Below are positions 1-34,730 of a stretch of DNA of 35,542 nt, one piece after another (position 1 is the stretch's first letter; each line of letters opens with the position of its first letter). Position numbers and translations under genes: made by a program. Origin of the DNA: a virus; IMG/VR virus record IMGVR_UViG_3300023176_006325, positions 1-35,542 of that record; one strand, written 5' to 3'. The notes beneath the pieces are model-generated. The model worked only from the letters and a program-made list of their open reading frames with translations. It was not told the origin of the DNA and did not search any database.

Positions 1-900
1 AAAAAATTTAGCACCCGAAGAAATTGCTAAATCTTCCAACACATTCCTTCTTTCCTCTCCGTAGTTTGGAGCCTTTATCAAACAGATCTTAATGTTTCCT
101 TGCGTTTGGTTCAACATACATGCACCCAACGCTTCTCCTTCAAAGTCTTCGGCAATCATAACCAAGGGTCTGTTTGCTCTTGCAGCAATCTCTAAAACAC
201 CCATGATTTCGTCCAAACTTGATATTTTTTTATCTGTAACCAACAAAAAAGGATTGTCTAGTTTAGCAACTCCTCTTTTTTCATCTGTCACAAAAGCCTG
301 ATTGAACAATCCAGAACGGAACGAGAAGCCTTCTACAACATCAAGTTTAGTTACCTTAGAATGTGACTCATCGATGGTGATTGCTCCATCTTGACCTGCG
401 CTTTCAACAGCCTCCCGAATGATTCTAGAGGCGATTCTATCTCCATTGGATGAGATATATGCAATGCTCTCTATATCGTTCGCAGAATCGACGTGAGAAG
501 AGATTTTTTCAACCTCTTCGAGTGCTTTTTTCAGTGCGTCTTCAAATTGTTTTTTAAGAACAAAAGGGTGAACCCCTGTTGCCAAGTATTTTTGTGATTT
601 TTTGAAAATCGCATTTGCAATAATTGTAGAAGTAGTTGTCCCATCTCCGGCCTCGACGTTTGTTTGAACTGAAGATTGTTTGATAACGTCAATTGCAAGT
701 TGTTCAAATGGATTGTCAGACTTTACAAACTGTGCAACTGTGACGCCATCTTTTGTAATAATTGGTCTCTTTCCCTTCTCTCCAATAAGCACTGTGTGTC
801 CTCTTGGTCCAAGAGTTGATCCGACATTTTCAGATAGAAGTTCCGAACCTTGCAGCAATTCTTTGTACAATTCCGATTTGTTTTTATAACGTACTGTCAT
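1..900 (-). CDS. groEL: GroEL-type chaperonin (HSP60), N-terminal 300 residues, runs off the window
   Basis: An open frame starts at ATG 900 and is still open at base 1, so only the N-terminal 300 residues are visible; E. coli GroEL has 548. Family landmarks appear in order: STLGPRG (28-34), ITKDGVTVA (48-56), the nucleotide-binding loop AGDGTTTSTI (84-93) with the ATP-hydrolysis Asp86, the equatorial-intermediate stretch DGAITIDES (171-179), and an apical domain with IAEDFEGEAL (249-258) and KAPNYGERRK (276-285). The start has a good Shine-Dalgarno, GAGAGGAAAAA, just upstream. The gene follows the ClpP-like gene by 19 bases. It should form a folding chamber, probably for virion or replication proteins. 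A GroES-like partner lies at 10651-10920. Assignment is very secure; whether the C-terminal half is intact cannot be seen. Confidence 0.95.
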   Translation of the reverse strand, partial: MTVRYKNKSELYKELLQGSELLSENVGSTLGPRGHTVLIGEKGKRPIITKDGVTVAQFVKSDNPFEQLAIDVIKQSSVQTNVEAGDGTTTSTIIANAIFKKSQKYLATGVHPFVLKKQFEDALKKALEEVEKISSHVDSANDIESIAYISSNGDRIASRIIREAVESAGQDGAITIDESHSKVTKLDVVEGFSFRSGLFNQAFVTDEKRGVAKLDNPFLLVTDKKISSLDEIMGVLEIAARANRPLVMIAEDFEGEALGACMLNQTQGNIKICLIKAPNYGEERRNVLEDLAISSGAKFF

Positions 901-919
901 TTTTTCCTCTCATTTTTTT

Positions 920-1639
920 TTAGAATAAACGATCTGCAATTCCAAACTCAATTGCTTTTTCAGAATCAAAATAATAATTTTTATCTTTTTTAATATATTT
1001 TCTTGCTTGTCTTTTAGTCATATTCGTATTTTCGACCAATATTTTTTCATACAAATCGCTCATCACTTTGGTTTCTTTATGTTCGATAGAAACATCATCG
1101 ACTGTTCCAAAAGACTGAAACATCACTGGATGCAACATCAATCTGCAATGTGGACCTAACAGTCTAAGACCTTTGGTTCCTGCACACAAAAGAGCCACCC
1201 CAGCAGATTGCACTTTGCCCAAACCAACAACCGAAATGTCACAATATTGCTTCAACTTTTGCATACAATCATAAATTGAGAACATGTCGTGGACTGAACC
1301 TCCAAAAGTGGAAAGAATCAAGTGAACTACTGGCTTTTCATACTCTTCTTCTTCTTCTACTTCCTCTTCTTCTTCCCTGTCATTCCACTCTTCCCACATT
1401 TGCCTGCAATACTCTTTAATAGAATACAATTCGTTGATTGTGTTCTCAGCTTTTTCTTCGTCTAAATCGCCATACAATGTAATTAAAAATAATTTTTCAT
1501 CTTGAATGAATTCATAATTTGCAGGCTCTTCATTTTGTTCTTTTTCTAATTCAATATTCTCACCACACAAAATGTGATTTTTTGGTTGATTCCATCGCTT
1601 ACTCTTTATCATTTTTTTTCCTTTTTTTTGCTTAGACAT
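920..1639 (-). CDS. clpP: ClpP-like serine protease
   Basis: 239 residues of the ClpP/crotonase fold. The oxyanion glycines are in STFGGSVHDMF (110-120). The nucleophile Ser145 sits in GKVQSAGVALL and His170 in RLMLHP. The C-terminal KAIEFGIADRL matches the ClpP ending EAxEYGLxD. The third catalytic residue is probably Asp219, but the local alignment is loose. Compared with bacterial ClpP (about 195-205 residues) it has a basic N-terminal extension and a Glu-rich insertion at 88-101. It lies immediately upstream of groEL. Phage ClpP-like enzymes can be head-maturation proteases or replace or modify host ClpP. The replication and folding context, with no capsid genes nearby, leans toward a ClpP-type role, but the sequence cannot settle this. 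Confidence 0.85.
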   Translation of the reverse strand: MSKQKKGKKMIKSKRWNQPKNHILCGENIELEKEQNEEPANYEFIQDEKLFLITLYGDLDEEKAENTINELYSIKEYCRQMWEEWNDREEEEEVEEEEEYEKPVVHLILSTFGGSVHDMFSIYDCMQKLKQYCDISVVGLGKVQSAGVALLCAGTKGLRLLGPHCRLMLHPVMFQSFGTVDDVSIEHKETKVMSDLYEKILVENTNMTKRQARKYIKKDKNYYFDSEKAIEFGIADRLF

Positions 1640-8069: not shown

Positions 8070-9016
8070 GTTTTCCTCCCAAAAGGTCTCATCTGGAAAT
8101 CCTTTTTTTCTTTTTTAAAGAACGAATTCGAAAGAAGTTCTCCTTTCTTCGCCCATCTTCCATATTCAGAAAATATTTCCGTCATGTCACTTTTCATATA
8201 TTCTTGATATGATTGCCAACAATTCAAAGAACAATAATTTTTAGTTTCTGCCACAACGGAATTATCGAGGGGCAAAAAATCAAAAACATCCTCCAAAGAA
8301 AGATTTTTCCCTGAATATCTGTCTTCCAAAGACAACTTAGTTGTATGTCCAGCGTCAGTGTAATACATATTTGTCGATTTGTCAACTATGTTCTTTTTCA
8401 AATCAAAAAAATCTGAGGTATAAAAACTAAAACCTAAGTATTTTCCATCTCTTACAGTCTCATTTTCATAAGAAACATAGAATCTGAGGTTGTTGTCAGC
8501 ATGTTGATTTATATGTTTCTTGTGTGAAAGCAAAAAAAACGGGTCATACAAGCCCATAGGGAAAGAAACATAAAAGACGTGAGGTACAAGCCATTTGGAC
8601 AGTTTTTTCGACGTGTATCGGGCTAAACGTGCGCCGTGGATGATTGTCCAAGGTATAGAGTCTCTTCTTTCTCTGTCAAGTGGTCTGATAGGCACATAAT
8701 AAATTGGAATTTCTTTCTTTATTGAATTTGAATCTCTATTTTTTGATTGTGATATTGAATAATTCGGATTAAGAATGTGGTCGCCAATTATTTTTCGGAA
8801 CAAATAAACATGTTCTCCTGGACACACTATCCAAATATTGCTACATCCAACAATAGCACATTCTAAAACACTATTGTGCAAAGGAGTAAAGTTTTCTGCA
8901 ATGGGGAGAGTAACACAAGGGTTAAGTAAAGGAGAGATGCTTTTGTTATCAAAGGCAGGAATGATGCCAGCAGTATATATATTATATTTGCTGGGTGGTC
9001 CGTCTAGATAATGCAT
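8066..9016 (-). CDS. Nucleotidyltransferase-like (GT-A fold) protein, tentative
   Basis: 316 residues. Residues about 15-75 resemble the start of sugar-phosphate nucleotidyltransferases: a beta strand YTAGIIPAF, SPLLNP, LPIAENFTPLHNSVLECAI and SNIWIVCPGEH, as in the strand-loop-strand of that fold. The glycine-rich signature GGxGTRM is missing, so normal nucleotide binding is doubtful. The middle has RPLDRERRDSIPWTIIHGAR and KWLVPHVFYVSFPMGLYDP. No transmembrane segment is seen. It sits between an unknown protein and dnaE, downstream of thyX, with the following small gene overlapping its stop. A role in modifying nucleotides or surface sugars is possible; I cannot assign a substrate. Confidence 0.4.
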   Translation of the reverse strand: MHYLDGPPSKYNIYTAGIIPAFDNKSISPLLNPCVTLPIAENFTPLHNSVLECAIVGCSNIWIVCPGEHVYLFRKIIGDHILNPNYSISQSKNRDSNSIKKEIPIYYVPIRPLDRERRDSIPWTIIHGARLARYTSKKLSKWLVPHVFYVSFPMGLYDPFFLLSHKKHINQHADNNLRFYVSYENETVRDGKYLGFSFYTSDFFDLKKNIVDKSTNMYYTDAGHTTKLSLEDRYSGKNLSLEDVFDFLPLDNSVVAETKNYCSLNCWQSYQEYMKSDMTEIFSEYGRWAKKGELLSNSFFKKEKKDFQMRPFGRKT

Positions 9017-18032: not shown

Positions 18033-18152
18033 CTATTTTGTTGTTCTAGTGTAAATAATTTTTATAATAAAATAACCAATAAACCAAGTCATTGCTAAAA
18101 ATATCCATGCCCAACCTATATTGCTTACAAATTTCCACAAAAAGCCTAACAT
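18033..18152 (-). CDS. Small single-pass membrane protein, 39 residues
   Basis: ATG 18152 to TAG 18033. The peptide starts MLGFLWKFVSNIGWAWIFLA and continues as one long hydrophobic helix ending with the basic tail KIIYTRTTK, so it is probably a membrane protein with a cytoplasmic positive C-terminus. Its first codons overlap the stop of the UVDE gene (CAATGTTAG), and ACAGGGACAAAATAC supplies a ribosome site. It is too short for usual gene-calling cut-offs. Tiny phage membrane proteins often modulate host membrane functions; the role here is unknown. Confidence 0.6.
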   Translation of the reverse strand: MLGFLWKFVSNIGWAWIFLAMTWFIGYFIIKIIYTRTTK

Positions 18153-19048
18153 TGTATTTTGTCCCTGTATAACAGTAACGCTTTTTCTTTCATTTTTGAC
18201 TCTAACATGATGTCGAAATCTAAGTTGTAAGTATCGATTTTTGTAAAAATATAATCAGAATGTGCTTGTGGTTTTATTTTTGTATCGTTTTGTTCTACTT
18301 GTCTTGAGTCACTGTAATGTGTTGCTGGCTTTACATCTTGCCATGTCGAAAGAGACATTTCTAATGCCTCTACTTCGTTTAGGTCAGACGAGCAGAATCT
18401 GTGATGGTGATAGTCAAAAACAATTGGTATGTCAATAAACTTATGAATCATTGTATATAAGTCATATGCAGAAAATAAAGATGCTCTATCGTCATTTTCT
18501 ACAGTTAGTCTAGATTGCAAGTTGGAAGATAACTTACAAAAGTTTAAACAAAAACGCTTTGCAGTTTCTTCTTTGTCACCGTATGTCGCTCCCACATGAA
18601 TGTTGATTTTGTTGTATGTAGTGTTAGATAAGCCCATACAATCCATTAAAAAAGAATGAAACTCTAATTCTTTGATTGTATTGATTAACACTTCTTCTTT
18701 GGGCGATGCAAGTTTACAAAAATGGTCTGGGTGAAATGTTAGGCGATGTTGCTTTTCTTTTGCAAACTTGCCGATTTGTTGTAGAATATCAAAAATCTCA
18801 TCTACATCTGGCAAGTCATAAAAAGAATACTCTGAACACCAAGGAAACAAATTTGAAGAAATACGAAAAAAACGTATGTTGTTTGCTTCATTCCACTGAA
18901 GGATGCTTAGGAGGTCTCTACAGTTTTGTAGAGACAGTTGAGATACATAAGGCAAACCTTTCTCTAGGAAAGTTTTTTTACGCATAGTTCTGTTTGTAAA
19001 AACATTGTTTGCTCGAAGTTCTGTGTTGATACAAGCATAGCCTAACAT
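18146..19048 (-). CDS. uvsE: UV damage endonuclease (UVDE/UvsE family)
   Basis: 300 residues, the usual size of bacterial UvsE. It begins LGYACINTEL, the typical N-terminus, and carries the TIM-barrel metal ligands in order: RLTFHPDHF, INIHVGATYGDKE, LTVENDDR, FDYHHHRF, THYSDSRQ and PQAHSDYI. The enzyme nicks DNA immediately 5' of UV photoproducts and some other lesions, starting excision repair. It would protect phage DNA in sunlit environments and replaces T4 DenV in this role. It is followed by an overlapping small membrane peptide gene. Confidence 0.92.
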   Translation of the reverse strand: MLGYACINTELRANNVFTNRTMRKKTFLEKGLPYVSQLSLQNCRDLLSILQWNEANNIRFFRISSNLFPWCSEYSFYDLPDVDEIFDILQQIGKFAKEKQHRLTFHPDHFCKLASPKEEVLINTIKELEFHSFLMDCMGLSNTTYNKINIHVGATYGDKEETAKRFCLNFCKLSSNLQSRLTVENDDRASLFSAYDLYTMIHKFIDIPIVFDYHHHRFCSSDLNEVEALEMSLSTWQDVKPATHYSDSRQVEQNDTKIKPQAHSDYIFTKIDTYNLDFDIMLESKMKEKALLLYRDKIQC

Positions 19049-20702: not shown

Positions 20703-21575
20703 TTATTTGCTAACTTTTTCCTTCAGGGACTTCATTTTTTTGTCAAGGTCGGACTCTTCTTCTGAATCTGAAGAGGAATACTTCACAAAGTTTTCTCTTT
20801 CCAAACCCTTTTCTTCAAAATAACCTTTAAGAAAATTATTTAAGATTTCTTTACTTTCATCGTAAGAAATTCTCTTAAACAGTTCTTCTGGACTTGTCTT
20901 TTGCGTTTTCATTTCTTCGAAAGAAGATGCAAAATCTTTTGAAAGAAGAACAGTTGGCTTGATGGATACATCAAAATCATTCATCTTGTAGCCACCGGCA
21001 TTCTTCTTGCCAGTCATTTTGAAGTCGTGAGCGGTATGCTCTGGCTCTTGAGAGATGAACCCTCCGGTTTCAAAAAAGTCTGGGTCCATGATTTTTCCTA
21101 CGATATACTCGTAGTCTTCTCGATTTTTAGTCTTGAAGTATTTTGGACCTTCGCTCTCTTTTCCGCGAACAATAACACGAAAAACCCAATATCTGCGAGG
21201 CATCAAGCGACGAAACAACTCTTTACTTTCTGGGTCGATTTCGTCCTTTCCAATCCTATTGCCATTTTCATCAATATAAAGAGAGGAAGCAAATTCTTGA
21301 ATTGCACTTCTCTCTCCATAGTTACCTTGAGGACAAAGAGGCAAGTTGTCTTTCGGCCACTTCCAACCCTCTACTTCTTCAACATCAATTCTTTCTAGAA
21401 TTTCAAATTCTTTTGCAACATCCCCATCTGGGTAAAGCAAAATCCTCACATTATCCACAACACCCTCTTTTGTTTTGTACTCAGGCCAAACCCTATCAGA
21501 ACTTCCAACGTTTTTGGTTGTTCCGTGTTGTTGAAAATTTTCGTACTTTTGCTTAAGTTTTTGCATGAAATCCAT
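20703..21575 (-). CDS. Single-stranded DNA-binding protein, T4 gp32-like
   Basis: 290 residues (T4 gp32 has 301). A basic N-terminus (MDFMQKLKQKYENF) would mediate cooperativity. An OB-type core follows with RRYWVFRVIVRGKE, KTKNREDYEYIVGKIMD and FISQEPEHTAHDFKMTGKKN, then VSIKPTVLLSKDF. The C-terminus is acidic and Ser-rich (SSSDSEEESDLDKK), as in SSBs whose tail recruits replication partners. The zinc-binding Cys/His cluster of T4 gp32 is not seen; there is only one Cys in the core. It coats ssDNA at the fork and works with UvsX and the helicase. A terminator follows directly. Confidence 0.85.
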   Translation of the reverse strand: MDFMQKLKQKYENFQQHGTTKNVGSSDRVWPEYKTKEGVVDNVRILLYPDGDVAKEFEILERIDVEEVEGWKWPKDNLPLCPQGNYGERSAIQEFASSLYIDENGNRIGKDEIDPESKELFRRLMPRRYWVFRVIVRGKESEGPKYFKTKNREDYEYIVGKIMDPDFFETGGFISQEPEHTAHDFKMTGKKNAGGYKMNDFDVSIKPTVLLSKDFASSFEEMKTQKTSPEELFKRISYDESKEILNNFLKGYFEEKGLERENFVKYSSSDSEEESDLDKKMKSLKEKVSK

Positions 21576-21976: not shown

Positions 21977-22004
21977 ATTATAATCAATTTTGTTATTTTG
22001 TCAA
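21977..22004 (-). promoter_or_regulatory. Consensus sigma70 promoter
   Basis: On the minus strand: TTGACA (21999-22004), 16-base spacer, TATAAT (21977-21982), both hexamers matching consensus. It lies directly downstream of the tmRNA gene and drives the SH3-like and SSB genes. Confidence 0.85.
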
Positions 22005-22052
22005 GAACTATTTTTGTTTTTTTTTCAAAATATTTTTCTTTGTTTGAAAATA

Positions 22053-22464
22053 TGGAGTTGGTGGGAATCGAACCCACGTCTTATCTATATATCATCAAAA
22101 ACTCTACACGCTTATTCTGTACATTTGAATACAATTTCTAATTCCCTTACAGACAAGGTTTGATTAGAAATCGCTCTTTTGTAACTTCATTGACAATTCA
22201 AAAGAGAATAATTGTCAACTATCCTTTTAGATTACCTCAAAACATCAAAGGATATTATTTTGAGGTGCGTCTTATGCTTGTAAGACGACTTCTTGGCTCA
22301 TACTTGGGAAAACACAATCGTTTACAAAAATGTTACTAAAATCCCAAACTTGATTTGCATCATAAGTTTTGCCATTTATTGTTTTCTAGGTTTTTAATGA
22401 GGCCACCTAGAACCTCAACGTGCATTTTAGAATCCACATAAACAATCGAAACCTTTGCAACCCC
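22053..22464 (-). ncRNA. ssrA: tmRNA (one-piece) with 33-codon tag
   Basis: 412 nt. The 5' GGGGTTG pairs with 3' CAACTCC in a 7-bp acceptor stem. The T arm GTGGGTTCGATTCCCAC is intact, and the 3' CCA is not encoded. PK1 is a GAGG/CCTC stem whose loop TTCTAGGT pairs with ACCTAGAA. After it AATAAATGGCAAAACT marks the resume codon, GGC at 22373-22371, as in Bacillus GKT-type tags. The reading frame starts GKTYDANQ, ends EVVLQA and stops at TAA 22274-22272, giving 33 codons. Two further H-type pseudoknots follow (CCTCAAAA/TTTTGAGG with ATCCTTT/AAAGGAT; TTGACAATT/AATTGTCAA with CTCTTTTG/CAAAAGAG), then a long hairpin GATTTCTAAT/ATTAGAAATT. It should rescue stalled ribosomes and tag nascent proteins. 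The gene has its own promoter. Confidence 0.95.
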
Positions 22465-22475
22465 GATTACGCTCT

Positions 22476-22503
22476 ATAATAACAATAATTATTTTTTTGT
22501 CAA
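22476..22503 (-). promoter_or_regulatory. Sigma70-type promoter of the tmRNA gene
   Basis: On the minus strand: TTGACA (22498-22503), 16-base spacer, TATTAT (22476-22481), about 11 bases before the first G of the tmRNA. A few extra 5' bases would be trimmed by RNase P. Confidence 0.8.
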
Positions 22504-22506
22504 GAA

Positions 22507-23391
22507 CTATTTTTGAATATTCGAAGTTTTATGTATAAAGCATGAATAATCTTGAGTATTTTTTTCTGAAGAGTGGACTGAGAATGTGATTCTTTCTTTA
22601 TTTTTGACTTTTTTGTCGAACAAATCAAACAATTTTTGACTAAGTTCTGTGTTTTCTTCAGCTTCTTTTTGCGGAACAATGTAATAATAATGTTTTTCAT
22701 CAGGCATTACAAAAACATTGTCAGAGTCCAAATCGTTCACTAAAGACAAATCAAAGAAAGGAAATTCTTCTCCGGTTTCAGGGTTCATCACGCCCAAAGT
22801 GCCAATTCGATAATGCTCAGTAAACTGAGGGTGGTTCCCCATCAACAGTTGTTCTTGGTTTTGATAATACAAAACTTGTCCGACTGTCTGACACAAAAAA
22901 TCATCAATTTTATCATATTTGTTTACCAAAGTGATGCCTGGAATTATACTCGATATTTTTTTTTCCGAAACAATCAGAAATTCATCAAAAACGCCAGAAC
23001 GAGTATATTCTTGCAAAACACCAAAAACAACATTGTGTTGCATCTTCTTTACTTTAGGTAAAAATGACATCTCAGGATAAAAATACAAGATGCTTATTTT
23101 ATTATTGTTTTTCTTTAGTTGTTCAAGGATACTAAGTGTCAATCCAGAAACTGTACTGACGCCACACACACAGAACAAAACATGTTTGTCTTGCATCGCA
23201 TGTTTGTTCGGGATAACAACCCCAAGTTTTTCATATCCTTCGTGAGTTGCACACTTTTCCACACGAATGAAACTCTTTTCTTTGCATTTATCATCTGCAT
23301 CAATGATAAGAATCTCAGTGTTGAATAAAAATTTAAATTTAGAGGCGATTTGAGAGCCAAATCTACCAAGTCCGACTATTGTATCATACAT
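22507..23391 (-). CDS. Divergent FtsZ/tubulin-like fold protein, tentative
   Basis: 294 residues. The N-terminus YDTIVGLGRFGSQIASKF and ILIIDADD match the first beta-alpha unit of FtsZ. HVLFCVCGVSTVSGLTLSIL (70-89) sits where FtsZ has its GGGTGTG loop, followed by ISILYFYPEM (like LTVAVVTKPF) and by FDEFLIVSEKKISSIIPGIT (like the VDSLITIPNDKL segment) leading into a long helix (KIDDFLCQTVGQVLYY). The glycine loop is degenerate and I see no NxDxxD T7 loop, so GTPase activity is doubtful. The first 60 residues alone could also be a TrkA-type Rossmann domain. Phage tubulins organise DNA or spindles in some large phages; here the role is unknown. The gene precedes the tmRNA. Confidence 0.45.
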   Translation of the reverse strand: MYDTIVGLGRFGSQIASKFKFLFNTEILIIDADDKCKEKSFIRVEKCATHEGYEKLGVVIPNKHAMQDKHVLFCVCGVSTVSGLTLSILEQLKKNNNKISILYFYPEMSFLPKVKKMQHNVVFGVLQEYTRSGVFDEFLIVSEKKISSIIPGITLVNKYDKIDDFLCQTVGQVLYYQNQEQLLMGNHPQFTEHYRIGTLGVMNPETGEEFPFFDLSLVNDLDSDNVFVMPDEKHYYYIVPQKEAEENTELSQKLFDLFDKKVKNKERITFSVHSSEKNTQDYSCFIHKTSNIQK

Positions 23392-23411: not shown

Positions 23412-24251
23412 CTATTGTTTGGTTGTCTTAGAGGGCGGTGTGTAGTTTGGGTCATGCCATAATTTATTATTTATAATTCTACTTATATTGCTAGTATTCA
23501 TATTATATTTTGTTGCCAATTCTTTTTGTGACATGTATTTGAATTCCCTTCTTATATTATTTATAATTTCTTCTTGTTTTTTTTTCTTTCTTTCTAGAAA
23601 GATTTGATAATCTGGGTCATACCAATTTTTGTTGTTTATAATAAAGCAAATTTGTATGTAATGTAAACTAAATTGCTCTGATAATTCTTTTCGACTCAAA
23701 CCTTCCAAATATAATCGTCTGACATTATTTACAATATTCCAATTTGTCTTCGAATTTTGTCTAAGACTTTCACTTATCTTTCTTTTCGTTTCTTTTGAAT
23801 GTTTCTTCCCCTTATTAAGTTCACTTAACTTTCTTTTCGTTTCTTTTGAGAGTGTTTTGCCTTTACGACTTTCACTTATCTTTCTTTTCGTTTCTTTTGA
23901 GAGTGTTTTACCTTTACGACTTTCACTTATCTTTCTTTTAGTTTCTTCTGAAAGTTTTCCCCCGCCCTCACCTCCAAGTCTCAAGTTATATCCATATTTT
24001 CTATCGTAAGTCTTAAACTTTTTGATATAAAATTTTTCAGCATGTTCTAAATCCTCAATGCATTCAGATTCATATAGAACAGTCCACTTAAAATTATTCC
24101 ATCCATATTTTCTCAAAGCATTGTAAAATGGATGATTTGTACCTGACATCATCTTTTTTTTATGTTCACGCATCCTTTTTTCCATAGTATATATGGACAT
24201 TCCCTTATAAAATTTTCCTACTGGCGATTCTGAACTATAAACACATCCCAT
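23412..24251 (-). CDS. GIY-YIG homing endonuclease with NUMOD3 repeats
   Basis: 279 residues. The N-terminal nuclease module shows [16 protein letters not shown], a degenerate GIY/YIG pair (CVY and FYKG), [10 protein letters not shown] with the catalytic-type Arg, [10 protein letters not shown] and [12 protein letters not shown]. It is followed by four tandem 17-residue NUMOD3 units ([15 protein letters not shown] type, residues 100-166) and two helix-turn-helix-like units each ending near NNKxWxDPxY (about 175-215 and 230-270). Such proteins cut a DNA target and promote copying of their own gene. It is free-standing, between a membrane protein gene and the FtsZ-like gene, with no intron visible. 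Shine-Dalgarno GCGGAGAAAT. Confidence 0.88.
23754..23954. repeat. 51-bp tandem repeats encoding NUMOD3 modules
   Basis: Four in-frame units of about 51 bp inside the homing endonuclease gene. The two central copies are nearly identical at DNA level, while the outer ones are diverged. They encode the 17-residue DNA-binding modules. Confidence 0.9.
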
Positions 24252-30443: not shown

Positions 30444-32752
30444 TATCCGTACTTTTCCTCTATTGCTCGTTCAACTGCATTCTGAAAGTTTCTTTTTGTT
30501 GCTTCTATATCCATAAAATTAACATCGATTTTAATCGGACTTGTTTGTCTTTTTGTGTTGACTTTTTTCTCTAAGGCACTGATTTTATTCATCAAATTGT
30601 TTGTTGTTTCATTTTTCGTTGAAACTTTATTTTGATACAGGCTGTTGTTTGTTTCAGACATTTTTTGAATATTTGAACTTATATTGGTTTTTCTAATTTC
30701 TGGTTCTGTTTTTATTAATTCTTGTCGATAGGATTTTAACCCATCAGACATGACAGTTGGCATTTCCCACAATGCTGGACTGCCTTTTTTTGTTTGAACT
30801 TTGTGAAGGACTTCAGATTGTGTTGCGAGGCGATTGACGTGGGGCACAGTTGTTTTGATTGAATCGCCATAATCTTCCATGTTCATTGCCATGTGTTTTG
30901 GCATTTCCCAAAATTGTGGTGAACCAGATTTGTGAAACCAACCCCAAAGAGATGCTATGGCAGCAATTAATCCACTAATGGCACCGACAATTAAAACTAC
31001 TTTTCCCAACATTAATCCTAGTGGCACCAAAAATAAAGCAAGAACAGGAGTTAATCTCAATAGTCCACCTAAAAACCCACCAACTGCATCCGATGTTTTA
31101 TTGATATATGCCCATGCTTGCGAAAAAAATCCAACTATTTCTCCCAACACATATGTAACCGGAGTTACAGCAATTGCAAAATTTTGCATCATACCTTTCA
31201 ACTTATTCATGAATGTTACTGTTGGCTCAATTGCCTTTCGAAAAGCCTTTTGACTTGCTTCCGCTTGTTTTGCTTTTTCTTTCGCTTCGTCATAAGCACT
31301 CAAAGACATGTTGAATATCTTATTGGCTTCTGCCATATCTGTTATCCCTGCTGCATTTGCTATAGCCATTTGCTCAAATTTGTTCATATTTTTGAACTGT
31401 CTTCCGCTAACATCTAAAGATTCTTTTATCATCCTTAATCTTTCATCTTCTGACGCATACAACAAATCTACAGAATTCAACAAGTCTCGACCAAGAATTG
31501 AATTTAATTTCCCAGCAACACCAGCAGAAGTTTCGAATGTGTTCATCGATTCACCAAATAAGCTATTTAATCTAGAAATAGAAATCCCTGTTATTTTTGC
31601 AGCAGCAGCAAGACCCTTGAAAACTTCCATCCCCTTTTTTCCATAAACGGACAACTGTGAAAAAGTGGATTTGAATTCTTCTGCTAATTTTGAAGTTGGT
31701 ATTCCAATTTTCCCTGAGAGGTTTGCTATCTCCAACAGAGTGTCGCTAGACGCACTGGCAGACATCCTAAGACCTTTTGTGAGGTCGTTTAGTATCTGAC
31801 TACTCGTTGAAGAAGAAACGCCCAATAAAGACATCTGAGATGAGATTTTTGTCAATTCTTGTCTTGCTTTTGGCGTAAGTTCGGTGAAACCAAGCATATT
31901 GGAGTATAAATCGCCAAATGCCTTGTTTGTGTCTGTAAGTGATATGGCGAATTCTCGATTTGCAATGGAAGCATTGTACACTTCATTTGTGTAAATTCTT
32001 CCTCTTGCGGTCAAAGCAGCGGTGATTGCTGCTTGATTCTCAAGTTCTATGACAAGTTTTTTGGTTTGGTCGTAAATCAAAGCCATGATTTGTCCTGGCT
32101 TTACCATGTCGGCCATACCTCTTGCTATGTTCGTTAAACTAAAAGTAATAGTGCCAAATACTTCTGAAATATCTTTAGCATGATTTAGAAAGTCGAAGGC
32201 AGATTGGCGCAAACCAAACCACTGTTCCATGTTTTTTCGACCATATTCAATGTTTTTCTTTTCGAGTTCGTTAATTTTTGATTTCAAATCGGTTGTGTAT
32301 TCTAACTCTTCTCTTAATCTTGTGACATCGTTAATGTGTTTTTTAAATTCATCTATTCTGGCTTTGTCTTTTTTTATTAGTTTCTCTGTTAAATCTATTT
32401 GCAAGTTTAATTCGACAACTCTTGGGTCTCCTGGCCATGAAATACTCAAATAAGATGCTCTTTTATCTCTAAGTTCTGTTAATTTTTCGCTTAATTTGTC
32501 ATAATTTCTGATTTCTTTCTGCATATTGTTTTCTATTTCAACGTATTGTTCTAATCGTTTTTTTTCGATTGCTTGTCGATTGTTGACTTTTTCAATTATG
32601 TCGCTAATGTGTCTGCTTTGTATTTCTAGAGACCGTATGCTTTTTTCTATACTTTCAGTCCATTCTGGAGGAAAAGTGATTTTGCTAATTTCGTCTTTAA
32701 TTTCTTGTATTTTTTTCTTGTAATCTTCTAAAATTTGATTTGGTGACGGCAT
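30443..32752 (-). CDS. Tail tape measure protein
   Basis: 769 residues. The N-terminal 170 residues are a long coiled coil. A helical middle with Ala/Ser/Met-rich stretches follows, then a strongly hydrophobic region near residues 557-602 (LTPVLALFLVPLGLMLGKVV and following), as in tape measure proteins that insert into the host membrane. A short motif recurs, GSPQFWEMPKHM (about 606-618) and GSPALWEMPTVM (about 654-666). The length would predict a tail of roughly 115 nm at 1.5 Å per residue if fully used (family rule, not measured). It lies before baseplate genes and after a terminator. Confidence 0.8.
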   Translation of the reverse strand: MPSPNQILEDYKKKIQEIKDEISKITFPPEWTESIEKSIRSLEIQSRHISDIIEKVNNRQAIEKKRLEQYVEIENNMQKEIRNYDKLSEKLTELRDKRASYLSISWPGDPRVVELNLQIDLTEKLIKKDKARIDEFKKHINDVTRLREELEYTTDLKSKINELEKKNIEYGRKNMEQWFGLRQSAFDFLNHAKDISEVFGTITFSLTNIARGMADMVKPGQIMALIYDQTKKLVIELENQAAITAALTARGRIYTNEVYNASIANREFAISLTDTNKAFGDLYSNMLGFTELTPKARQELTKISSQMSLLGVSSSTSSQILNDLTKGLRMSASASSDTLLEIANLSGKIGIPTSKLAEEFKSTFSQLSVYGKKGMEVFKGLAAAAKITGISISRLNSLFGESMNTFETSAGVAGKLNSILGRDLLNSVDLLYASEDERLRMIKESLDVSGRQFKNMNKFEQMAIANAAGITDMAEANKIFNMSLSAYDEAKEKAKQAEASQKAFRKAIEPTVTFMNKLKGMMQNFAIAVTPVTYVLGEIVGFFSQAWAYINKTSDAVGGFLGGLLRLTPVLALFLVPLGLMLGKVVLIVGAISGLIAAIASLWGWFHKSGSPQFWEMPKHMAMNMEDYGDSIKTTVPHVNRLATQSEVLHKVQTKKGSPALWEMPTVMSDGLKSYRQELIKTEPEIRKTNISSNIQKMSETNNSLYQNKVSTKNETTNNLMNKISALEKKVNTKRQTSPIKIDVNFMDIEATKRNFQNAVERAIEEKYG

Positions 32753-32771
32753 TTGTTATAATTTCTCTTAT

Positions 32772-32797
32772 AAAAAAAGGCTGAACAATGTCAGCCT
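32772..32797 (-). terminator. Rho-independent terminator upstream of the tape measure gene
   Basis: AGGCTGA (32778-32784) and TCAGCCT (32791-32797) form a 7-bp stem with a 6-base loop, followed on the minus strand by seven T. It ends the transcript of the 32877-35523 genes. No clear promoter is visible between it and the tape measure ATG, so partial read-through or a phage-specific promoter is likely. Confidence 0.8.
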
Positions 32798-32876
32798 CGT
32801 ATAAATAATTATTCACTTGTAAACGTACAATACGCAGATTTTCAATATTCTTCTAAGATGATGTTGTTATAAATTA

Positions 32877-33221
32877 TCAAACCAACCATACATTTAGCAA
32901 TTCTCGTACATCATTGACCGTGATGAATTGTATGACTGAGCCTTTGCTGTATTGTGACCAAAAACCTTGTTGGTATAAATTTTGAAACCAACCATACATG
33001 AAGGCAGGCAATATCCTCTCAGTATTTAAAACTTTAACGCCAATTCTATTTTTTCCATATTCTTTCAATGGCTTTCCTAAATTTTTCTCGCTCCCTGTGG
33101 CATAAATCCAAAAGTCAGCATCCTCTAAACCTTTGCCCACTTTAAAATTTTCATTTCTACCACTTATTTCTTTTAATATTGCTTTCTTGACGGATTCAAA
33201 TAAATCGTTTGATTTTTTCAT
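32877..33221 (-). CDS. Hypothetical protein, 114 residues
   Basis: Begins MKKSNDLFESVKKAILKEIS, a short amphipathic helix almost shared with the C-terminus of the next protein upstream (LFKSVKKAIIKSL). The rest is beta-like, with FWIYATGSEKNLGKPLKEYG and FMYGWFQNLYQQGFWSQYSK. No family recognised. The shared helix could be a targeting or scaffold-binding peptide of the prohead or tail module. It is the last gene before the terminator at 32772-32797. Confidence 0.6.
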   Translation of the reverse strand: MKKSNDLFESVKKAILKEISGRNENFKVGKGLEDADFWIYATGSEKNLGKPLKEYGKNRIGVKVLNTERILPAFMYGWFQNLYQQGFWSQYSKGSVIQFITVNDVRELLNVWLV

Positions 33222-33301
33222 TGTTTTATTTTCATATTAATAAATCTACTTGTGTTAATTCAAACTTTTGATTATTGCTTTCTTGACGGATTTAAATAAA
33301 T
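33178..33301. repeat. 28-bp direct repeat shared by two adjacent genes
   Basis: ATTGCTTTCTTGACGGATT followed by (C/T)AAATAAAT occurs at 33178-33205 and 33274-33301 with one mismatch. The first copy encodes the N-terminal helix of the 114-residue protein and the second the C-terminal helix of its upstream neighbour, so a duplicated segment spans the junction. Confidence 0.9.
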
Positions 33302-34034
33302 TTTCGTTTAAGAATTCATCTTCGTATGCTTCTAATTCATCTTCGTATGCTTCTGGACGTATAGAATTTCCTTGATTAAGGTCAAGTTCTGCATCCTCTA
33401 CAGTTTCATCCCAATAGTCCATTACTGCTTCATTCATACCTTCAAGGTCGCCAATTATGAAAAAATCTTCAACTTCATGCCAAGTTTTTTCATACAATTC
33501 GTTGTATTTTGAGTCTGCAAATGTTTGAGCGATAATATCCATACATTCCATTGCCTGAGAATCTTCATTTGCGAAAAGATAATCTCGAAAACTTTCTAAA
33601 TGTTTTAAAACTTCTTTTCTATCGTATTCTGTAAAATTAACCTTTTTCATTGTTTTACTCTCCTTTAAAGAATAACTTACTTGCCCTGCAATAATGTTCA
33701 AAATATCACTCAAGACTTTTTCTTCTTCTCTTTCTAATCCTCCATCAACTGCATTCTTGTAATGTTCTTTAGCAATACGAATAAAATTGTTCATGGAGTT
33801 GTCTGCAATCTTGTTGGGATCTTTGTCGCCGGACATTGTTCTAAATGTCTTTATGCCTTGATTTTTGATTGCACTGGATGTTTGTTCGGTTGCATGTGAA
33901 ATTGCGGAGGAAAGAGCCGACTTGTCAAGCATGAAAGTGTTAGATGTGACTTTTCTAATCGCTCTGTCTATCGGACTTTCATTGTTTGATTCTCTTAGAG
34001 TTTTAGTTTCGAGTTTCATCTTTTTTTTTTTCAT
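33255..34034 (-). CDS. Hypothetical helical protein with possible internal second start
   Basis: 259 residues if begun at ATG 34034. The frame is open to ATG 34085, but that overlaps the upstream gene by 83 bases; ATG 34019 is also possible, and none of the three has a good ribosome site. The protein is helical and polar, with DRAIRKVTSNTFMLDKSALS early and an acidic end EAYEDELEAYEDEFL plus the helix NLFKSVKKAIIKSL. An internal ATG at 33650 (MKKVNFTEYDRKEV) has an excellent Shine-Dalgarno, AAAGGAGAG, so a 131-residue product or a former gene fusion is plausible. No family recognised. Confidence 0.6.
   Translation of the reverse strand: MKKKKMKLETKTLRESNNESPIDRAIRKVTSNTFMLDKSALSSAISHATEQTSSAIKNQGIKTFRTMSGDKDPNKIADNSMNNFIRIAKEHYKNAVDGGLEREEEKVLSDILNIIAGQVSYSLKESKTMKKVNFTEYDRKEVLKHLESFRDYLFANEDSQAMECMDIIAQTFADSKYNELYEKTWHEVEDFFIIGDLEGMNEAVMDYWDETVEDAELDLNQGNSIRPEAYEDELEAYEDEFLNENLFKSVKKAIIKSLN
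33313..33354. repeat. Perfect 21-bp tandem duplication
   Basis: AATTCATCTTCGTATGCTTC plus T is repeated exactly at 33313-33333 and 33334-33354, in frame, adding seven residues (AYEDELE type) near the C-terminus of the gene at 33255-34034. Confidence 0.95.
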
Positions 34035-34494
34035 ATGTTTTGCTAAAGACTTCTTTTTCAACAATTCCATAATCTTTGTGTCCATATTGAACTAAAAAAT
34101 CACCACCACCCCCAGATAATAAACTATCAGACCAAGAAACTTTCACTTGAAACGGTCTTGTCATTTCTTTTGCATAAACTTTTATTGGTTTTTTAGTTGC
34201 AACATTGGGTTCGATAATATCATACGTTTGTTTGAATTTTTGTGCATCAATCGGCCAATTTTCACCTTTAACTCCTGTCATAATATAATCACCTTTTTTG
34301 GCGGATACTGGACCCTCTAAAGTTTGTATCATCATATCTTGATTGGCAACTTTAAACTGCACAGGGATTGCTTTTTTCATGGTCGGAAAAGCTTCCGTAT
34401 CATTAGATAATTCTGGATTAAAGTCTCGACCTATAACGCCATCCATATGCCTATTGAAAGATTCTTTGAGATATTTGAAATCATAATTTTTCAT
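34003..34494 (-). CDS. Hypothetical protein with PGDYI-like motif
   Basis: 163 residues. The N-terminus (MKNYDFKYLKESFNRHMDGV) is a short helix with LKES, as seen at the start of several phage head or tail assembly proteins. The middle has TLEGPVSAKKGDYIMTGVKG followed by ENWPI and FKQTYDII, resembling the 'PGDYivtGv.GE.wpi....F..tY' module found in many phage proteins of unknown function. The C-terminal part is beta-like with RPFQVKVSWSDSLLSGGGGD. It overlaps both neighbours slightly (ATGA upstream at 34491-34494), so it is in one coupled unit with the baseplate genes. Confidence 0.6.
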   Translation of the reverse strand: MKNYDFKYLKESFNRHMDGVIGRDFNPELSNDTEAFPTMKKAIPVQFKVANQDMMIQTLEGPVSAKKGDYIMTGVKGENWPIDAQKFKQTYDIIEPNVATKKPIKVYAKEMTRPFQVKVSWSDSLLSGGGGDFLVQYGHKDYGIVEKEVFSKTYEKKKDETRN

Positions 34495-34730
34495 CTTTTT
34501 TGTTCCATTTGTTCGTTCTGTTTTTTTATTTCGTTAGAAAGACGTTCAACAAACCACTGTCTTAGGGGTATCGGAAGATTGTATGCTTCTATAAAACTCC
34601 AACCACCATAATACTGCAACAAAAAAAGTTGTTCGTACACTTGCTTACTATATTCATAGGTCAGGCCAAAAAAAGTTTTTAGTGACAGGAACCTCCAACA
34701 ATCCTGCCCAACCACAACTTTCACACTCAA
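34491..34730 (-). CDS. Small phage protein, possible baseplate assembly factor
   Basis: 79 residues if begun at ATG 34730, which overlaps the upstream gene by 77 bases; a GTG at 34640 would give about 49 residues and avoid most overlap. The conserved-looking part is LFLLQYYGGWSFIEAYNLPI then PLRQWFVERLSNEI, a pattern seen in short proteins that follow the gp26/hub-chaperone gene in T4-like phages. Function in hub assembly is inferred from this position. The C-terminus is Gln/Lys-rich. Confidence 0.55.
   Translation of the reverse strand: MSVKVVVGQDCWRFLSLKTFFGLTYEYSKQVYEQLFLLQYYGGWSFIEAYNLPIPLRQWFVERLSNEIKKQNEQMEQKR

Follow-up and report, generated by a model that had tools for sequence, protein, structure and literature searches.

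A complete one-piece phage tmRNA with a 33-codon tag ending VLQA, and a similar tag in a distant virus

The virus stretch analysed here in its whole length of 35,542 nucleotides (hereafter the window) carries on its minus strand a real one-piece phage tmRNA, with a tag frame of 33 codons that ends in VLQA. Selection probably acts on the tag peptide, to judge from the similar tag of a nearly unrelated phage, and with moderate confidence we read the locus as a working phage tmRNA with a selected tag that most likely still marks proteins for a host AAA+ protease.

A complete one-piece tmRNA and its 33-codon tag

The 412-nt gene was called by ARAGORN at exactly 22053-22464 and matches RF00023 over 22050-22464 with 144.8 bits (gathering threshold 47, E 4.8e-57) across model positions 1-374, that is at full length; in the Rfam search of the window this tmRNA match was the only RNA-family match above cut-off. 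The two methods thus agree on the complete one-piece tmRNA that an earlier note on this DNA had proposed, and they add the strand, which that note had left out. Its parts, and a promoter-like site ahead of it, are as follows:

22053-22464, minus strand: tmRNA gene ssrA, no encoded CCA (ARAGORN, Rfam RF00023)
22458-22464, minus strand: 5' acceptor strand GGGGUUG (anatomy reading)
22385-22416, minus strand: pseudoknot 1 (Rfam alignment, anatomy reading)
22374-22384, minus strand: 11-nt frame-setting spacer AAACAAUAAAU, with U at -5 and A at -4 (anatomy reading; role after PMC2481249)
22272-22373, minus strand: tag frame, resumes at GGC and runs for 33 codons to a UAA stop (ARAGORN, Rfam, anatomy reading)
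22268-22287, minus strand: hairpin with the tag end and stop codon (anatomy reading)
22220-22266, minus strand: pseudoknot 2 (anatomy reading)
22174-22218, minus strand: pseudoknot 3, second stem read by eye (anatomy reading, sequence)
22134-22172, minus strand: long hairpin (Rfam alignment, anatomy reading)
22053-22077, minus strand: T arm and 3' acceptor strand (Rfam alignment, anatomy reading)
22476-22503, minus strand: sigma-70-like promoter TTGACA-16-TATTAT, 11 of 12 matches (consensus scan)

The acceptor strands GGGGUUG and CAACUCCA pair with each other, the third pair being G-U; a G3-U pair in the acceptor stem is an alanine identity feature. Pseudoknot 1 combines the stems GAGG/CCTC and TCTAGGT/ACCTAGA and is followed by the 11 nucleotides AAACAAUAAAU, with GGC beginning at the 12th, the same spacing as in Escherichia coli, and the U at -5 and A at -4 before GGC occupy the positions of E. 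coli U85 and A86, which set the tmRNA frame, A86 being critical for frame choice (PMC2481249). The stop codon of the tag lies inside a 7-bp hairpin, CGUCUUA/UAAGACG. Pseudoknot 2 joins ACCTCAAAA/TTTTGAGGT with TATCCTTT/AAAGGATA; the third has TTGACAATT/AATTGTCAA as its first stem and, by eye only, CTCTTTTG/CAAAAGAG as its second. With that reservation about one stem, the anatomy agrees with the pseudoknot 1, two further pseudoknots and long hairpin past the tag described earlier.

The alignment to RF00023 and ARAGORN place the resume codon at the same GGC, and the tag is accordingly read as GKTYDANQVWDFSNIFVNDCVFPSMSQEVVLQA, 33 codons ending in VLQA, before the stop codon UAA. The frame and the non-AA end given in the earlier note were therefore recovered identically by covariance model and by ARAGORN, and neither alternative frame yields a short tag ending in LAA: the +1 frame, from GCA, encodes a 16-codon peptide ending in TFL and would put A, not U, at -5, and the +2 frame stops after three codons. 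An open frame of 33 codons arose in 1,247 of 20,000 shuffles of the region (about 6%), and taken alone it is weak evidence for a tag. The tag end retains Leu at -3 and Ala at -1, with Gln in place of Ala at -2; E. coli ClpX binds the Ala-Ala-COO- of the ssrA tag (PMC10638403). The molecule thus shares with bacterial one-piece tmRNAs its domains, the pseudoknot 1 spacing, the resume context, the stop codon in a hairpin and the G3-U acceptor pair, but differs in being phage-borne and in its 33-codon tag with the end VLQA, where bacterial tags usually end in LAA, 10 residues being the most frequent tmRNA tag length (PMC11915505).

The promoter-like site stops 11 bases short of the tmRNA 5' end, and the region holds eight sigma-70-like sites against a mean of 4.8 in shuffles, hence no proof of a promoter. 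A 15-base block, AAATAGTTCTTGACA, forms the -35 region of the tmRNA (22498-22512, minus strand) and has one other exact copy, at 21999-22013 (minus strand) before the next gene; it may perhaps represent a shared phage promoter type. Since the scan reported no terminator-like site on the tmRNA strand between the tmRNA and 21629, the tmRNA may also be co-transcribed with the following gene.

The window comes from an IMG/VR virus record and includes a T4-type baseplate protein (PF12322, 34654-35523) as well as genes for ribonucleotide reductase, DNA polymerase III alpha, RecA, ThyX and dUTPase; the nearest matches of the reductase, at about 40%, come from crAss-like phages, very large uncultured phages and a fecal phage fragment (best 20 of 1,675 records). 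A 56,841-bp contig, G001, differs from the window by 3 mismatches over 34,060 bp and carries an identical tag, but it belongs to the same virus population and therefore lends no independent support to tag conservation. Searches for relatives through the flanking 290-aa protein (20703-21575, which has no PHROG or Pfam family match), RecA or the exact tmRNA 3' end returned G001 only. SmpB was not found in G001 or G002 and was found in one of 36 tmRNA records, the contigs being partial; a phage smpB could lie outside the known contigs. The smpB gene near the tmRNA of L010 (IMGVR_UViG_3300042438_000031) is probably host DNA or a prophage edge. Three further features of the window may be recorded: a NUMOD3-bearing, homing-endonuclease-like gene near the tmRNA (23412-24251), a UvdE-type UV endonuclease (18146-19048), and, within a 207-aa gene (1814-2437), short repeats at 2142-2254 that give repeated MPDMD units.

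Tag length and tag ends among viral tmRNAs

How unusual is such a tag? Loci were gathered by tRNA-like-domain patterns (73 + 89 stretches), with a smaller third set and the window itself, and 148 were given to ARAGORN, which called a tmRNA in 93 and thereby yielded 63 distinct one-piece tags from viral contigs, some of which may hold host DNA or prophages. More than half of these tags (34/63) have at least 17 residues and eight at least 27, the top length of 33 being reached by the window and by L157; 18 of the 63 do not end in -AA, LVA, LSA and LTA being among the ends of viral tags. All 63 end in Ala, a figure that is biased in so far as ARAGORN may favour Ala ends, and four other loci (L147, L152, L162, L179) have tags that, as read here, end in VTI. 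The count of 63 leaves out permuted tmRNAs and the tags of Rfam-only matches, which were read by rule and include longer ones (L054, 34 residues; L043, 38 residues).

Among the 55 loci without an ARAGORN call, 26 are full-length RF00023 matches, and most others run off the end of a contig or are split by an intron. RF00023 matches missed by ARAGORN include L012, L031, L043, L054, L109, L124, L131, L144, L152, L158 and L166, and many of the 26 have long tags or non-AA ends; phage tmRNAs are probably under-counted. In six loci (L122, L135, L154, L164, L176, L184) a group I intron match (RF00028) overlaps or adjoins the T-loop match, and intron-bearing tmRNA genes are known (PMC11915505).

The earlier note had called phage tmRNAs uncommon, which holds, with tmRNA genes in 402 of 18,146 phage genomes (PMC9004378). 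Its further claim, that the tag is unusual, stands only in part: the tag is indeed long and its end non-AA, but each of these traits is common in viral tmRNAs, and the annotated tags of cultured phages already include one that ends in VGA. The length of the window's tag is rare, not unique, and marks an extreme within a broad spread of long viral tags.

Phage-borne tmRNAs are known from mycobacteriophages Bxz1 and Wildcat, Bacillus phage G, Streptomyces phages, the uncultured phage cr50_1 and the Methylophilales phage Melnitz, the last of which has a two-piece tmRNA (PMC9004378), whereas that of the window is one-piece; what sets the window apart from these known cases is its long tag of the form YxAxxVWxF...QEVxLxA. 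The RNA of mycobacteriophage DS6A is a phage-borne relative with little beyond the tRNA-like domain (PMC4131195), in contrast to the complete tmRNA described here. In the part of the literature covered, no discussion of long phage tags was found, which is not to claim that none is in print.

A similar tag in a distant virus

The tag of the window has its best counterpart in L054 (IMGVR_UViG_3300002518_000001), a contig of 104,653 bp with 54% GC whose tmRNA had been retrieved by its tRNA-like-domain pattern and not by its tag. That tmRNA measures 418 nt, matches RF00023 at full length with 132.7 bits and was missed by ARAGORN; read by rule, its tag is ANSNYYADKVWSFGVACDVAAPCHVSNQEVALFA, 34 residues long, with GCC as resume codon, A at -4 and the end ALFA. 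It therefore belongs to the same size class as the tmRNA of the window and provides the best in-register tag, but differs in base composition, tag length and tag end. The RNAs share 234 identical bases over 405 aligned, the highest count among 116 viral one-piece tmRNAs (next 213), and their identity of 57.8% is second-best of the 116, the rivals being L111 (61.5%, over a much shorter 283 bases) and L137 and L190 (57.2%). L054 had appeared as clearly the nearest RNA (55% against 50% for the next) in a first alignment with 21 other tmRNAs, most of them picked because of a long tag or because Rfam alone had detected them; over all 116 the lead is small.

Aligned in C-terminal register, the two tags have identical residues at 10 of 33 positions (Y, A, V, W, F and Q, E, V, L, A), which form the common motifs YxAxxVWxF (YDANQVWDF in the window) and QEVxLxA, the latter at the very end. 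Against the tag of the window, that of L054 scores 28, higher than any other of the 69 tags compared (runner-up 20); a score this high came up in 14 of 3,000 whole-set shuffles that kept the last four residues. For the pair alone, 6 of 100,000 shuffles reached it, and 26 of 100,000 did so when the first four and last four residues were left unshuffled; the register was picked after inspection. Local alignment, which sees YxAxxVWxF only, is less striking (313 of 20,000 shuffles, or 660 of 20,000 with the ends fixed). Between window and L054, pN/pS is 0.58 in the tag frame and 1.01 and 0.83 in the other frames; the codon is also identical at five of the ten shared residues, so some of the conservation may be at the RNA level.

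At E 1e-4 the only protein matches between window and L054 are RecA and a DnaB-like helicase, which argues that the likeness of the tmRNAs does not stem from recently shared DNA. Because the tag resembles that of a nearly unrelated phage, it would seem to be selected and not merely open by chance, and the likeness hints that phages shape such labels for their own use. A second long-tag family, of the GETFAKL type, also keeps its peptide, as judged from a pN/pS of 0.50 in the tag frame over 13 chosen distinct sequences, the other two frames giving 0.75 and 1.39.

A strict tag pattern found no third tag of the window/L054 type in viral contigs and, in a species-genome collection, one match, in Colwellia, without an ARAGORN tmRNA. 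A variable-gap version matched 20 stretches, of which the 18 besides G001 and L054 have no tmRNA by ARAGORN or 3'-end signature, and a tblastn search of cultured phages gave a single match, at E 8, with one of the two tags and no match with the other. The pseudoknot-1 pattern returned nine stretches, and the new tmRNAs among them (L109-L113) carry tags of 8 to 10 residues. L054 also has a predicted tRNA at 8124-8196 with the anticodon TTA, which would read UAA; its own tag ends in UAA, as do 20 of its 69 long ORFs, so this codon is not avoided.

ClpP and the fate of tagged proteins

What would become of a protein that carries such a tag? One candidate destination is encoded in the window itself:

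920-1639, minus strand: ClpP-like peptidase, 239 aa (PF00574 5.6e-27; PDB ClpP 2e-17)
1-900, minus strand: GroEL, first part, directly after the ClpP-like gene (G001 33161-34723, PF00118 5e-57, PHROG 5725)

The best PHROG match of the ClpP-like gene is a head maturation protease, though its neighbour is GroEL, a gene that is complete in G001 (33161-34723); the two genes (window 1-1639, G001 32422-34723) are a possible proteostasis pair. Ser145 and His170 of the protein align clearly with ClpP and Asp219 only with a two-residue insertion, and the profile match begins at position 44 of 182; the gene has diverged, and the N-terminal part of the profile has no counterpart in it. Some 20 kb separate it from the tmRNA.

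Of 92 records, 56 have tags of at least 17 residues and 36 have shorter ones; ClpP was found in 9 and 5 of them, respectively. These records are fragments, several of them from one lineage (for example L012, L031, L032, L038, L044 and L059), the tag of L017 is uncertain but was entered as long, and the second set contributed 35 of 70 new loci, about one per tag. A link between long tags and ClpP, suggested at first by 7 of 21 long-tag records, disappeared as records were added. Permuted tmRNA records have no ClpP (0/3), nor do control contigs without an ARAGORN tmRNA in the fetched stretch (0/18, many of them short). Four other records do have a full ClpP (184-208 bits) at 50 bp to 3.2 kb from the tmRNA. 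In L076 (4443-7090), DnaJ, a 156-aa gene and ClpP are followed 50 bp on by the tmRNA, all in one direction; L046 (1462-4456) and L017 (796-6797) have a like DnaJ-ClpP order in one direction, with other genes between ClpP and tmRNA in L017. The small gene between DnaJ (assigned by Pfam) and ClpP measures 140-156 aa across the three.

The route suggested in the earlier note, delivery of tagged proteins to the phage ClpP-like enzyme, consequently finds little support; host ClpX, ClpA or ClpC would be the unfoldase in such a route. Its attraction is that a gene with the catalytic Ser and His and an alignable Asp sits beside GroEL in the same genome and that other viruses place a full ClpP near the tmRNA, as in L076 at 50 bp or in the DnaJ-ClpP arrangements of L046 and L017. 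Against it stand the distance between the two genes here and the divergence of this ClpP, and we rate the route low because ClpP is about as frequent with short tags as with long ones and absent from the L054 contig; it is, in our judgement, improbable. A similarly poor prospect attaches to a decoy or a passenger, that is a tmRNA-like RNA that titrates SmpB, or a host-derived gene that is drifting. The tRNA-like-domain-only form of DS6A, together with the strong inhibition of tmRNA by a similar molecule (PMC4131195), would speak for a decoy, and some phages integrate at tmRNA genes (PMC3203893, PMC3029335). The molecule described here, however, possesses all functional parts beyond the tRNA-like domain, keeps the frame-setting bases and has a tag like that of a distant phage; moreover, the gene is whole, and no integrase occurs among the window proteins scanned, a subset of the ORFs.

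It is conceivable that only ribosome release matters and that the tag is arbitrary, open by chance and long since its stop codon falls in a hairpin. In E. coli, rescue is hardly affected by changes to the tag template (PMC2481249), and shuffled regions stay open for 33 codons often enough, but the likeness to the L054 tag and the frame-specific conservation, both here and in the GETFAKL-type family, make this rather unlikely. There is somewhat more room, though still on the doubtful side, for a tag that changes the fate of its proteins, by engaging another host protease or adaptor or by sparing them from host ClpXP, so that the phage gains control. VLQA does take the place of Ala-Ala-COO-, which is what ClpX of E. 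coli binds (PMC10638403), the upstream YxAxxVWxF common to L054 may contain an adaptor site, and the ssrA tag of Mesoplasma florum, likewise natural and of unusual length and sequence, is reportedly degraded by Lon and not by ClpXP (PMC8138137), in a bacterium that lacks ClpXP. On the other hand, the tag retains Leu at -3 and Ala at -1, and other viral tags end in LVA, LSA or LTA. A more specific proposal, that a class of long tags are phage-kept degrons, whose YxAxxVWxF and QEVxLxA in this virus and L054 are read by a dedicated adaptor or protease so that proteins rescued during infection bypass ssrA-ClpXP, appears unlikely.

The reading we favour is a working tmRNA with a selected tag, and the retained Leu-x-Ala-COO- end makes it most likely that this tag is still a degradation mark. 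During infection the phage tmRNA would depend for charging and transport on the alanyl-tRNA synthetase, the CCA-adding enzyme and the SmpB of the host; host SmpB and synthetase would be used since SmpB was not found in G001, itself an incomplete contig. The tmRNA would then reach ribosomes that have stalled on broken mRNAs of phage or host, where rescue is expected from what is known of the family, translation would resume at GGC, and the released protein would bear the 33-residue tag and most likely be destroyed by a host AAA+ protease, the long YxAxxVWxF part perhaps helping or altering recognition by that protease. The authors who described Melnitz considered that a phage tmRNA might sustain the machinery that the phage has taken over, or mark host proteins so that they are recycled (PMC9004378).

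Phage tmRNAs have been listed and counted, and in the portions of the literature covered the function of their tags is at most postulated. A peptide common to two nearly unrelated viruses, along with a second conserved family, suggests that the peptide matters beyond ribosome release. Should long tags prove to redirect rescued proteins, phages would be rewiring the quality control of the cell, and their tags would be ready-made orthogonal degrons.
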